Source: a virus
Direction: 5' to 3' (one strand)
Length of the DNA stretch: 29,444 nucleotides
IMG/VR virus record: IMGVR_UViG_3300044675_000310
Coordinates: 1 to 29,444 of that record
The notes beneath the pieces were generated by a model. The model made no database searches. It was given only the letters and a program-made list of their open reading frames with translations, and had not been told where the DNA came from. A program made the translations under genes and the position numbers. Below, piece after piece: positions 9,985-16,490 of this stretch (positions are counted from its first letter, which is position 1; each line of letters opens with the position of its first letter).

Positions 9985-10605
9985 TTATCGTGTTAGTTTG
10001 TTGAAAACAACTTGCGCTGTCAGAGCAGACAGGTCTACATCTACCTTGACTTCCTTCTTCTCACGCTCTACTACTTGGCGGTGTCTCTCCTTGTACTCCT
10101 CAGGTATCAAGTCCCATAAGGGTTGCCACATCTTGAGGGCAGGGGCTAGAGTTACGTGGGCTTCAATCACCTGTGTTACTGAGGCGATAAAGGCTTTCTT
10201 CTTATCAGCTACTGCTAGGATGTTGGCTTGGTAGTCAGCTATCTCTTGGGCTATATCCTCCCACTCGTTACCGACTAACTCATAGCCGTAGTAGTCCTTA
10301 CCCTTGGCAGGTACATCGTTCGGTAGTTGGTTAGGGATAGCACGTTTGGCAGTAGTCTTGCAGACTAATCCACCAACGTCTTTGCCGTTGATTTTTGATA
10401 CCTTCATCTCCTCTGTAGTAGAGAAAAAGCACATAGGTAATGCGTTCATAGAGGGTATGTACTTAGCATGTATGCGTTCATATATGCGGTCACCCCATGT
10501 TGAGTTGACATTACCCCTTGCCGCATCCATCTGCTTGTCGAACATATGCCCTGCGTTCTTAACGATTGCATCCTTTAATTCTTTTGAGAATCTTACTGTT
10601 GCCAT
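9985..10605 (-). CDS. Uncharacterised phage protein (possible Nmad5-like)
   Basis: 206 aa, SD AAGGAG 6 nt before ATG 10605. It opens with a helical region resembling the start of small modification-associated phage proteins (FSKELKDAIVKNAGHMFDKQ) and contains a beta-rich centre (MCFFSTTEEMKVSKINGKDV). The end is Lys/Glu-rich helix (EEYKERHRQVVEREKKEVKV). The overall shape reminded me of Nmad5 (nucleotide-modification-associated domain 5) proteins, but this is a weak memory-based match and should be treated as unassigned. No hypermodification enzymes such as thymidylate-synthase-like or glycosyltransferase genes are visible nearby, which argues against that label. Confidence 0.7.
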   Translation of the reverse strand: MATVRFSKELKDAIVKNAGHMFDKQMDAARGNVNSTWGDRIYERIHAKYIPSMNALPMCFFSTTEEMKVSKINGKDVGGLVCKTTAKRAIPNQLPNDVPAKGKDYYGYELVGNEWEDIAQEIADYQANILAVADKKKAFIASVTQVIEAHVTLAPALKMWQPLWDLIPEEYKERHRQVVEREKKEVKVDVDLSALTAQVVFNKLTR

Positions 10606-10771: not shown

Positions 10772-11348
10772 TATCTTCCTCCACGTTTAGGTCATTGGCG
10801 ATAACAGTTTCTTGTACCGCTTCATCACTCGTCAAGTAGTCGTACTCCTTCTCTAACGTACGATACAACGTACGCATATGGTCTTTGAATGTATCTTTGA
10901 ATAGTGATTCAAAGTCTGCATGTACTCCATCAGTCAGTACTGCAAGCCACGCTTGGGACTTAAACTCTCCCTCGTATGGGCTGAACATCCTAGTGAACTC
11001 ATCGTTGTCATACCCATCAGGCATAGGTAAGTCCCCGTTGAAGTTGGTACAGTTCTCGTGGTAGTAGTGACCACTGTGGTCTACCTTGAATGACCAATGG
11101 TTCTTAGCATGTGTGGTGAGGGTAGGGTTGTCATACCCCAACTTATTGAGGAATAGTTCCCAGTCCTCTACCCTACCTTCAAAGCAAGCACCATCACCTT
11201 GTGACCAAAACCCTGAGAAGTACATCTTGTCTACGTCAATGCCGTGTTCCTTCATGTCCTCCTTAAAGTTTTCATACACGCAGTCCCACCAATCCATACA
11301 CTCAACATTGATATGCCTATACTTCTCAAGCATCTTGTCGGCTATCAT
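10761..11348 (-). CDS. Acidic uncharacterised phage protein with GFWSQGDGACFEG motif
   Basis: 195 aa, strongly acidic, Trp/Tyr/Phe-rich. The stretch MYFSGFWSQGDGACFEGRVE (about 42-61) is distinctive. I have a general memory of SGF(W/Y)SQGDGA(S/C)F motifs in uncharacterised phage proteins, but no function is attached. His-rich segments (HAKNHWSFKVDHSGHYYHEN) could bind metal. The C-terminus is a run of Asp/Glu. The start ATG overlaps the stop of the metallopeptidase-VWA gene (ATGA), so it is the fourth gene translated with the AAA+ module. High acidity could reflect DNA mimicry or interaction with a basic partner; this is inference. Confidence 0.75.
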   Translation of the reverse strand: MIADKMLEKYRHINVECMDWWDCVYENFKEDMKEHGIDVDKMYFSGFWSQGDGACFEGRVEDWELFLNKLGYDNPTLTTHAKNHWSFKVDHSGHYYHENCTNFNGDLPMPDGYDNDEFTRMFSPYEGEFKSQAWLAVLTDGVHADFESLFKDTFKDHMRTLYRTLEKEYDYLTSDEAVQETVIANDLNVEEDNDE

Positions 11349-12511
11349 TTCATTACCACCACTTCACCGAAGGGTGCGTCACCTTCATCAGTTGATACCC
11401 ACAGTACAGGGTAGCTAGGCATATCACCGAAGTCATCACAGCACAGGTCGGTCAAGAACACACAGGCTACTGGCTCAATGTCATGCTCTGTGAAGTACTG
11501 GAACACAGGGCTGAAGGCAGTACCTCCACCGCCGTGTGCCTTGATGTCAAGGGTGTCATCTCTACCATACGATTCGTAGTGTGATACCTCGCTATCGAAG
11601 TACACCACATGGATTTTTGTAGGGTTGCCATCTTCCTTGATAGCGTTAATCTCCCCTGCAAACTGTGCCAGTATCTTGTCATCAATAGAACCTGAGCAGT
11701 CCACTGCAATGGCTATCTCACCGAGGGATTCACCGCTAATGCTAGGCAAGTACAGTCCTTGTGATAAGAACCTACGATTAGGTCTAGCCCATGAGCGTTC
11801 ATCAGTACGGCACTTCTCGACAAACTTACGTAGGACATCACGCCAATCTACCTTAGGTGCAAGTACATCGTTGACCAGTCGCTCTAGTCCTGCACTCATC
11901 TTGCCCATCATCTTAGCGGCTTGTGCCGCTTGTGCTACACGTACCTTCCACTCGGCTTGCTGTTGTGCCTTCTCAGCAGGGGTATCACCGCCATCGTTGC
12001 AGTCATCCATAGCTTCAGTACCATCACCGCCACCACCTTCATCGGGTTCATCAGGCAACAAGTTGTAGATACCATCAGTCGTTTGGTTGCCTGCTTGGTA
12101 CAGTTGCGGGTTAAGCAGTCCGAACGTAGGCATCTTGCCAATGCTTTCGTCAGTCAGCAGTTGGTTGATAACGTAGTCACCTGCCTTGTTCCATCGCTTG
12201 TGCTGACGTTCACCACGTCTGAAGTTGTGGTCAAGCATAGGGTGCATACACTCATGGGCTACTACGAACTTGCGTTCCTCATCACCGAATGAGTCCATGA
12301 AGTATGGGTTGTAGCCGATACGCTTGCCATTCGTCCATGCAGTACGGCATGTGTAATCAGGTACGAAGGGTAGGTTCAATGCAATGTTGCCAATGAAGGG
12401 GTGTTCAAGTACCAATGCGGTACGTGCCTTGGCAAGTAAGCGGTCAATACGCTTCTCGTCAGCAGGTGACATCGGTTCTTTGTTGGCGTGGTTAGGTACG
12501 ACTGAGGTCAT
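11345..12511 (-). CDS. Metallopeptidase (DUF2201 N-terminal) plus VWA-like domain protein
   Basis: 388 aa. The N-terminal domain has a zinc-protease HExxH motif (VVAHECMHPMLDH, H86-E87..H90, further His at 95) in the context typical of DUF2201-type putative metallopeptidases (YNPYFMDSFGDEERKF before it, RWNKAGDYVINQLL after it). A Gly/Asp/Glu linker follows at about 152-180. The C-terminal VWA-like domain has a full metal-ion-dependent adhesion site: DCSGS (D271, S273, S275), T331 in GGGGT and D355 in FLTD. Such proteins work with MoxR-type AAA+ ATPases, like CobT-CobS and ViaA-RavA, and the partner ATPase is encoded two genes upstream. It could remodel or cleave a host or phage protein. The target is unknown. 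Confidence 0.88.
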   Translation of the reverse strand: MTSVVPNHANKEPMSPADEKRIDRLLAKARTALVLEHPFIGNIALNLPFVPDYTCRTAWTNGKRIGYNPYFMDSFGDEERKFVVAHECMHPMLDHNFRRGERQHKRWNKAGDYVINQLLTDESIGKMPTFGLLNPQLYQAGNQTTDGIYNLLPDEPDEGGGGDGTEAMDDCNDGGDTPAEKAQQQAEWKVRVAQAAQAAKMMGKMSAGLERLVNDVLAPKVDWRDVLRKFVEKCRTDERSWARPNRRFLSQGLYLPSISGESLGEIAIAVDCSGSIDDKILAQFAGEINAIKEDGNPTKIHVVYFDSEVSHYESYGRDDTLDIKAHGGGGTAFSPVFQYFTEHDIEPVACVFLTDLCCDDFGDMPSYPVLWVSTDEGDAPFGEVVVMK

Positions 12512-12512
12512 A

Positions 12513-13361
12513 TCAAAGTCCTTTCATGAATACGGACATCTTGTCCATGATTTGCTTAGCTTCTACTGCCGTGTCACGGCGTAGGTCGGGGTCATTACGT
12601 AGTGCTTCAGGGTGTTTGATAAGTGAACCCTCCACTTGTGCTCGTAGTGCTTCAAGGTTGGGGTCATCCATGAAGTTCAGACGGGGTAGCAGGGCACACA
12701 ACTCCTTGGTGTTATCCACTAAGGTGTCACGGAAGATAGCCTTGGGGTCTGCTAACTTCTCAGCCATGTGCTTTACTCGGTCGTAAAGTCTATCCCATAC
12801 CTCCTTCATAGCTACAGTCTGTGCCTCTGTCACCCTACGCTCAACATCTTCTTGGATGCGTGTCAACTCATCGCTTGCAATGCTCACTCGGAAGTCGGTC
12901 GATGGCACTGGGAAGATAGCCATGTCAATCTTGAACTTACGTGCTATTTCCTGCTCATCGGGGTAGTCTGCATCGTTGTATAGTCCGTTGAGTAACCGCT
13001 TGGCATCCAGTCGCAACTGGTCGTAGTTCGCAATGAACTGGTCTACAAGGTACTGCCACTCACCCTTCTCCTTACGGAAGTCAGTCATGAAGGCTAGGTA
13101 GTTGGCAGAGGGAAGCATCTGCGTACCCTCCATACCCCAAGGCAATGTGTTCTCGTAGAACTTAGTGCGAATGTGGGTAGTCTTCTTGTGCACATGGTCA
13201 AGCAAGTCATTGGCAGGCAGTAACGCCTTGTTGTATCGCCCTGCTTGGGTTGATGTGCCGTAGGTATTGGCAACATCTTGTGTTGCCTTCTTGTCGTACT
13301 TGCGTGCTGTCCATTGGGATACGGATAGCTGTACGAGTAATGCTCTGTCGTTCAGATTCAT
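12513..13361 (-). CDS. DUF3150-like middle protein of the AAA+/VWA module
   Basis: 282 aa, mainly helical. It begins with NLNDRALLVQLSVSQWTARK, continues with lysine-rich helices, a YENTLPW segment and a Tyr-rich ANYLAFMTDFRKEKGEWQYL. It then has long charged helices (RIQEDVERRVTEAQTVAMKE). Length, the opening motif and the position between a MoxR-type ATPase and a metallopeptidase-VWA protein match the DUF3150 proteins seen in analogous three-gene phage cassettes. Biochemical function is not known for the family as far as I can say; a scaffold or adaptor between ATPase and VWA partner is plausible. It ends 1 nt before the ATG of the VWA gene and starts behind GGAGT. Confidence 0.75.
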   Translation of the reverse strand: MNLNDRALLVQLSVSQWTARKYDKKATQDVANTYGTSTQAGRYNKALLPANDLLDHVHKKTTHIRTKFYENTLPWGMEGTQMLPSANYLAFMTDFRKEKGEWQYLVDQFIANYDQLRLDAKRLLNGLYNDADYPDEQEIARKFKIDMAIFPVPSTDFRVSIASDELTRIQEDVERRVTEAQTVAMKEVWDRLYDRVKHMAEKLADPKAIFRDTLVDNTKELCALLPRLNFMDDPNLEALRAQVEGSLIKHPEALRNDPDLRRDTAVEAKQIMDKMSVFMKGL

Positions 13362-13388
13362 AGTAGGTACTCCTTCTGTTGGTTAGGT

Positions 13389-14375
13389 TTAGAACAATAC
13401 GTCTGAGTGCTTCATTGCCCACTTGGTAAACGCTTGCGTGTTAGCCAGTTCGGGTTTCTTACGTGCCGCATAGGACACAGTAAGCACTGAGAAGTCAGCA
13501 GGCATACGCTCTGCATAGGTACAGACTCTCTCGAAGTTGCCTTCAGTAGCACGTTCAGACAGTGCACCACTCAGGGCATACAAGGTAGCAGGGTCAGTCG
13601 GCACATCAGCAGTAGTCGGGTTCATCAGTACTGCATCAGGGTTAGGTAGCTTACGGAAGATACGCAGGAAACCTACGAACTCAGCCGCCGCACCTTCACC
13701 TACTGCACCCTTGAAGCACTCGAACTCAGCATCAGTAGGGCATACACCAAGCACATCGCTTACACCCTCAACCCATGAACGAGGCGTAGCGTTTTGGTCA
13801 CGCTGAGCATCGAAGTCATGAAGCAATGCAGGACGGAAGCGAATGAACGATACGACCTCTGACCTTACGTTGTTGTCAAGTGCCCATGTAGTCCAGTCAT
13901 CGAGATGGGTTTCTAGTTCCAATACAGTCTCACGATTACGCAGATGGGACAGTACTCGGTTAGCACCTGCTCGGTCTGCTTGCCTGTTGCCAGTAGAGAT
14001 TACCTGCCACCCATCAGGCATCGGTGTGCCGTGTAGAGTACGTGCTTGACAGATGTTAGCCAGTACTTTCTGTAGGTCACTGCTTGCTTGATTGCGGTCA
14101 TCGAACAACAGGATACCCTTCTCAGGTGCTTTACCTTTAACTGGAAACCAGTCAGGCAACTTGTACTCTAGTCCGTTGCCCTCTTTGGGAAACAGGATAC
14201 CGAAGTCCTCGACAAGCATGGTTGGCATATGTCGTTCGATAACAGGGATGTCAAGTTCTTCTGCAACTTGATGCACGATGGTTGTCTTACCACCACCGGG
14301 GCTACCCTCGATACACAGCGTACGCTGAATAGGGAATGTAGATTTGATTGTGTCTTTAAGTAGAGAAGCTCGCAT
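13389..14375 (-). CDS. MoxR/CobS-like AAA+ ATPase
   Basis: 328 aa. Walker A GSPGGGKT (24-31), then the MoxR-typical region with FGILFPKEG. Walker B is GILLFDDRNQAS (D92-D93), sensor 1 is ISTGN (N130), and candidate arginine fingers lie in NRVLSHLRNRE (R140, R146, R148). The order and the xxDRNQA context fit MoxR-family ATPases, which act as hexameric remodelling motors for VWA-domain partners. The first gene of the cassette with DUF3150-like and metallopeptidase-VWA genes downstream. Odd point: the second acidic Walker B residue is Asp rather than the usual Glu. The ATG lies 3 nt after the upstream stop, with AAAGGA as ribosome site. Confidence 0.87.
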   Translation of the reverse strand: MRASLLKDTIKSTFPIQRTLCIEGSPGGGKTTIVHQVAEELDIPVIERHMPTMLVEDFGILFPKEGNGLEYKLPDWFPVKGKAPEKGILLFDDRNQASSDLQKVLANICQARTLHGTPMPDGWQVISTGNRQADRAGANRVLSHLRNRETVLELETHLDDWTTWALDNNVRSEVVSFIRFRPALLHDFDAQRDQNATPRSWVEGVSDVLGVCPTDAEFECFKGAVGEGAAAEFVGFLRIFRKLPNPDAVLMNPTTADVPTDPATLYALSGALSERATEGNFERVCTYAERMPADFSVLTVSYAARKKPELANTQAFTKWAMKHSDVLF

Positions 14376-16256: not shown

Positions 16257-16400
16257 TCACCGCGAATACCATATCCAAAGAAACCAGTCAAATACAAAAC
16301 TTAGATTGTTAGGAATACATAGAAGAATCAAGGACTTACGAGCGAATAATCTAGATAAGGCAAATAATCTAGTAAGGTTTGGGTCTAGAAATGTGTGCAT
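16257..16400 (-). CDS. Weak candidate 47-aa ORF in the intergenic region
   Basis: ATG 16400 to TGA 16257 gives a hydrophobic, aromatic 47-mer (LILLCIPNNLSFVFDWFLWI). AAGGAGG, the strongest ribosome-site match in the area, lies 10 nt upstream. Against it, the first half is simply the two AATAATCTAG direct repeats read as codons (RLFALSRLFA), and the spacing is long. Listed because of the ribosome site only. Confidence 0.25.
   Translation of the reverse strand: MHTFLDPNLTRLFALSRLFARKSLILLCIPNNLSFVFDWFLWIWYSR
16345..16372. repeat. Two direct repeats of AATAATCTAG
   Basis: Perfect 10-bp copies at 16345-16354 and 16363-16372, 18 bp apart start to start. Their core TAATCTA is the reverse complement of the TAGATTA core of the tandem nonamers downstream, so the region has the same motif in both orientations. 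Confidence 0.75.
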
Positions 16401-16463
16401 ATGGACGCCGCCTCCTTAACTTTACAGTCTGACCCCTAGATGAAAGGGTATATGGGTAAATTG

Positions 16464-16490
16464 TTTAGATTATTTAGATTATTTAGATTA
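16464..16490. repeat. Three tandem TTTAGATTA iterons
   Basis: Three perfect, adjacent 9-bp copies at 16464-16472, 16473-16481 and 16482-16490. Iteron-like, in the longest gene-free stretch of the leftward arm. Confidence 0.85.

Follow-up and report, generated by a model that had tools for sequence, protein, structure and literature searches.

What does a phage do with an AAA+ ATPase of the MoxR type that is encoded beside a protein carrying both a zinc-peptidase motif and a von Willebrand factor A (VWA) domain? The question is raised by a locus in IMG/VR record IMGVR_UViG_3300044675_000310, of which 29,444 bases (the window) were analysed. The original prediction had placed three adjacent leftward genes at positions 11345-14375, and their coordinates, strand and tight spacing were borne out (Table 1). 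It had also held that no phage function was established for such a cassette; this is supported, as the ATPase-VWA pair belongs to the core genes of N4-like phages (gp24-gp25 in N4) and is present in jumbo phages without an explained function. The answer that we favour, although we place it somewhat short of an even chance, is that the triad is a MoxR-VWA remodelling machine with a peptidase of its own, directed at an intracellular protein met early in infection. It draws on the protein families, the intact motifs, the operon-like layout, the conservation of the genes and the dependence of the middle gene on its two neighbours, all of them apparent at the level of sequence.

The three proteins and their families

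The ATPase passes the curated cut-off of Pfam family PF07728 (AAA_5) with 24.2 bits against 22, matches phrog_1297 of the PHROG database with E=6e-70, and has Midasin as its top PDB profile match (E=3e-29, with a profile of 19 homologues). Midasin is a MoxR-VWA remodeller. The earlier description of a complete MoxR-type ATPase holds for the GSPGGGKT and STGN motifs and for the MoxR/midasin type, but not for Walker B, which reads DD and not DE, so that the usual catalytic glutamate is missing. The DD form is found in the main phage clade and in the Burkholderiales clade, with DE elsewhere, and because of it we call the protein a MoxR-type ATPase with a variant Walker B.

The HECMH motif and the full metal-ion-dependent adhesion site (MIDAS; DCSGS, T331 and D355) that had been predicted in one protein were located at just those residues in the product of the third gene. 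The protein matches PF13203 (E=2.7e-48, 165 bits, cut-off 23.2), PF09967 (E=3.5e-27, 95 bits, cut-off 26.4) and phrog_1314 (E=2e-103), and its DUF2201_N and DUF2201 matches together span almost its entire length. The HExxH and MIDAS residues are invariant across 24 homologues with identities down to about 26%, from podoviruses to jumbo phages, and the motifs are also kept in Bacillus PBS1, Staphylococcus LY01, Yersinia phiR1-37 and Vequintavirus phiWec196. In an AlphaFold2 (AF2) model with a mean predicted local distance difference test score (pLDDT) of 78.6, VWA domains match the C-terminal half with Z up to 11.8 (148 residues at 3.0 A). A Foldseek search with the model gave no match below E=0.001, and a PDB profile search gave a weak match to the minimal peptidase MJ1213 (E=0.001). 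The label 'HNH endonuclease' is attached to phrog_1314, to many phage records and to N4 gp25 (L080:11164-12306; L numbers are our labels for loci). We rejected an HNH endonuclease as the product of the VWA gene, the HNH family being absent from its Pfam matches. Judged by its domains, the family is a metallopeptidase-VWA protein and the PHROG name is wrong; the present analysis thus corrects a widespread annotation.

The middle protein had been predicted to be helical and DUF3150-like. Its AF2 model is indeed helical (pLDDT 73.5), and the link to DUF3150 is upheld by profile-profile comparison but not by any direct match. Searches of Pfam, PHROG and NCBIfam gave no convincing family match for the protein, DUF3150 (PF11348) searched directly in the window gave no match, and the plasmid homologues score under the Pfam cut-off for DUF3150. 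With hhalign, and alignments of 19 and 14 diverse sequences, the middle protein and DUF3150 matched at 96.4% (E=1.3e-9, 229 columns), whereas reversed profiles stayed below 1% and all controls, including the other two proteins of the cassette, below 3%. An earlier comparison on smaller alignments had reached 38%, and the result became positive once both alignments were enlarged. Foldseek found no match to the middle-protein model below E=0.001, and a second look gave common helical bundles only. True DUF3150 proteins are encoded between a CobS-like ATPase gene and a CobT-type gene in four loci (L182, L183, L192 and L195), and at further DUF3150 loci one such neighbour was detected, so that profile homology and gene position agree. 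On this evidence the middle protein is a remote homologue of DUF3150, but by the curated cut-off it is no member of PF11348. In the limited literature set on DUF3150 and DUF2201, no mention of DUF3150 was found.

Table 1. Genes and predicted functional residues of the triad, from the listing of open reading frames in the 29,444-base window and from alignments of homologues
Feature	Position in window	Strand	Basis
AAA+ ATPase, MoxR/midasin type, 328 aa, N4 gp24-like, phrog_1297	13389..14375	-	PF07728, phrog_1297, midasin profile match
Walker A GSPGGGKT, residues 24-31	14283..14306	-	G27, G29 and K30 invariant in 19 homologues
Walker B D92-D93	14097..14102	-	Asp replaces the usual second-position Glu, likewise in Burkholderiales triads
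Sensor 1 STGN, residues 127-130	13986..13997	-	N130 invariant in 19 homologues
Probable arginine finger R148	13932..13934	-	Invariant in 19 homologues
Probable sensor 2 R199 (TPRSW)	13779..13781	-	Invariant in 19 homologues
Middle protein, 282 aa, mostly helical, remote DUF3150 homologue	12513..13361	-	hhalign, AF2
DUF2201_N metallopeptidase and DUF2201 VWA protein, 388 aa, N4 gp25-like, phrog_1314	11345..12511	-	Pfam, PHROG, AF2
Zinc-binding motif HECMH, H86-H90	12242..12256	-	H86, E87 and H90 invariant in 24 homologues
D112, candidate third zinc ligand	12176..12178	-	Invariant
MIDAS DCSGS, D271-S275	11687..11701	-	D271, S273 and S275 invariant
MIDAS T331	11519..11521	-	Invariant
MIDAS D355	11447..11449	-	Invariant

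Layout and distribution on phages and plasmids

The triad is not a product of chance, because PF13203, PF09967, phrog_1297 and phrog_1314 are matched at the E-values given above. Each of its genes (3/3) is preceded by a Shine-Dalgarno-like sequence, a single base separates the stop of the middle gene from the start of the VWA gene, and the stop of the latter overlaps the ATG of the next gene downstream. The gene order is retained in all IMG/VR loci of sufficient length, and the triad is under purifying selection (dN, nonsynonymous, about 0.12-0.32 versus dS, synonymous, about 1.0-2.0).

More than 50 viral contigs and about 40 plasmids, mostly from Burkholderiales, carry the conserved triad. 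The middle gene turned up at 74 loci in one viral scan, and wherever the contig suffices in length the triad is complete; a second scan found 483 stretches that encode a relative. Among 50,697 phage records the middle gene was present in 3 (all of 65,014 bases), the VWA gene in 551 and the ATPase gene in 582. The VWA gene occurs in 62 plasmid records, 21 of which lack the middle gene. The latter is present in 41, in each case together with the VWA gene (40 by listed accession and one by a genus tally). The middle gene was also found on acidobacterial and other genome contigs. That the three genes form an indivisible unit is not supported, since ATPase and VWA genes are found without the middle gene in N4, PEV2, K477, PAC2, CBB, phiFa, S-TIM61 and RHph_TM27B. 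Such pairs are frequent; the middle gene, however, was never found without the pair. On a tree of 44 VWA sequences the triad label requires 2 changes, versus 12.7 in shuffles; a Rhodovastum plasmid clusters with MinM2, and the Burkholderiales sequences form a clade separate from the main phage one. This pattern suggests exchange of the triad between phages and other replicons.

On the bacterial side the triad is carried by megaplasmids, and several of the triad plasmids are conjugative. A PRTRC ThiF gene lies 5-11 kb from the triad on the same contig at 10 loci by coordinates and probably at 13 of 19 that were tested, three of these being placed by the numbering of contigs; in C. taiwanensis the PRTRC module comprises E2-like, JAB, ThiF, protein C and ParB-like genes. 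Type IV secretion genes follow some of the plasmid triads. Two natural variants were encountered. In pBcp895-1 (L160:5643-11230) an IS21-type element interrupts the middle gene while the ATPase and VWA genes remain open, and the VWA protein of a Variovorax plasmid (L207:6010-7296) has ATVLH where HExxH is expected, with its MIDAS intact, and is probably a natural peptidase-dead variant. The plasmid triads provide such variants and tractable systems, and they help to tell virion-related from intracellular explanations. On a Sphaerotilus plasmid (L202:946-10662) and on pSYSA (L201) the pair, here lacking the middle gene, has DUF262 genes nearby, together with a Sir2 gene in Sphaerotilus; these pairs may have a defence-related use.

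In the window, the leftward block beyond the triad encodes a DUF3310 protein, a PolA-type polymerase, a PD-(D/E)XK exonuclease and an SNF2-type helicase, and its layout is consistent with a single transcription unit. The virion genes, among them terminase and portal-like ones, are oriented the other way, rightward from about 17.7 kb. The gene at 9985-10605, two genes downstream of the triad, matched the nucleotide-modification-associated domain Nmad5 below the threshold. AT-rich tandem repeats of 9 bases (TTTAGATTA type) with inverted copies lie at 16345-16490, where the gene blocks diverge, and are possibly an origin or control region. A megablast comparison of 10 kb of the window with phages gave no match.

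What the triad may act on

In NorQD a hexamer binds one NorD whose VWA domain has been modelled in the pore of the ring, and the MIDAS is required for client activation but not for ring binding (PMC9976466). By analogy with NorQ-NorD, the ATPase of the triad would assemble into a ring, the VWA protein would dock onto it and grip a target through the MIDAS metal, and ATP hydrolysis would strain the structure of that target. The HExxH domain, being in the same chain as the VWA domain, could then cleave the segment that is exposed, with the DUF3150-related protein perhaps serving as an additional specificity or scaffold subunit. The target would probably be intracellular and not a virion protein: either host-made or part of the element's own machinery for replication and recombination. 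Several observations weigh against this proposal. The ATVLH variant of Variovorax and a Walker B without the usual glutamate mean that the machine may in some cases dispense with cutting or fast hydrolysis; the pair lies near structural genes in CBB and S-TIM61; and the DUF2201 VWA domain, being short, need not possess a pore finger of the NorD kind. As an indicator of timing, gene position is only indirect, and the functions of the triad on phages and on plasmids could differ.

That last point also keeps some weight on a role as a chaperone in virion assembly and a protease in maturation, which Iyer and colleagues proposed in 2021 for the MoxR and metallopeptidase-vWA pair of jumbo phages (PMC7824862) and which would agree with the location of the CBB and S-TIM61 pairs. 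We nevertheless consider this role, and virion processing alone, unlikely, because plasmids, which have no virion, hold the same triad and because the triad of the window sits in a replication unit, away from the virion genes. The plasmid occurrence fits an intracellular role better. Host takeover, anti-defence and programmed proteolysis, as suggested in the original prediction, are candidate roles. Counter-defence, in which the machine would take apart or cut one particular defence protein of the host, would be consistent with the early/replication unit in which the triad is located, with its patchy presence in genomes (3/200 of one order) and with its being common to phages and conjugative plasmids, which face the same barriers. 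Core status in N4-like phages (PMC4193335) suggests a wider need, however, and we give counter-defence only a modest chance. A known defence system was rejected as an identification of the triad: a search of its proteins against PADLOC-DB for anti-phage defence gave no convincing match, the ATPase drawing weak P-loop matches only.

The remaining alternatives seem to us less probable still. If the peptidase were vestigial or regulatory, the machine would be a pure remodelling chaperone, which is what the Variovorax triad resembles in retaining MIDAS, ATPase and middle gene without HExxH; since HExxH is unchanged in every phage homologue that was checked, we regard this as quite improbable in general. 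The pairing of plasmid triads with a PRTRC ubiquitin-like module raises the thought that the VWA MIDAS recognises proteins carrying ubiquitin-like tags, which the AAA+/peptidase would then remodel or cut, with phages using another recognition signal. It is prompted by the binding of a UBL domain by the midasin MIDAS (PDB 8ql1), and we mention it as a long shot. Viral CobS and CobT have been annotated as auxiliary cobalamin genes (PMC8651126), and CobS/CobT-like genes do neighbour DUF3150 proteins, yet metal chelatase subunits of the CobST kind are a highly improbable identity for the triad. The VWA protein exceeds the cut-offs of DUF2201 families only, not that of CobT, and has an HExxH motif; a cobaltochelatase was rejected on the absence of the CobT family match. 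No CobN match was obtained among the window proteins searched, the window being an incomplete genome.

Relation to known systems

The ATPase-VWA pair itself is not new. Genes 24 and 25 of N4, which are middle genes in timing, are among the 14 core genes of N4-like phages, where they are listed as unknown and vWFA (PMC4193335), and the pair is described from jumbo phages (PMC7824862). The main text of the CRISPRi-ART paper holds no result that we found for N4 gp24 or gp25. Within the limited literature set we consider as new the DUF3150 link of the middle protein, the sharing of the triad by phages and plasmids, its PRTRC neighbourhood, the finding of the middle gene only together with the pair, and the position of true DUF3150 proteins between CobS-like and CobT genes.

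The gp24-gp25 pair of N4 (Schitoviridae) has the same gene order as the window, with 29% identity for the ATPase and 30% for the metallopeptidase-VWA protein, but N4 lacks the DUF3150-like middle gene and its Walker B is DE. The jumbo-phage pair shares both domain architectures with the window, whereas no middle gene was detected at the CBB or PAC2 loci, and the role proposed there is in the virion (PMC7824862). NorQ-NorD, RavA-ViaA, CbbQ-CbbO and midasin resemble the triad in that a MoxR-type AAA+ protein is partnered with a VWA/MIDAS module. None of these is known to us to include a DUF2201_N peptidase or a subunit of the DUF3150 kind. The CobS-DUF3150-CobT triads have the order ATPase, DUF3150, VWA, but their VWA protein is of the CobT type and that of the window a DUF2201 metallopeptidase-VWA protein. 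The Burkholderiales plasmid triads differ in their surroundings, since PRTRC genes (often at that 5-11 kb distance) and adjoining type IV secretion genes (in some) were not seen in the window. In make-up they have the same three genes in equal order and the same DD Walker B, and the proteins of the C. taiwanensis triad are 37% (VWA), 34% (middle) and 34% (ATPase) identical to those of the window.

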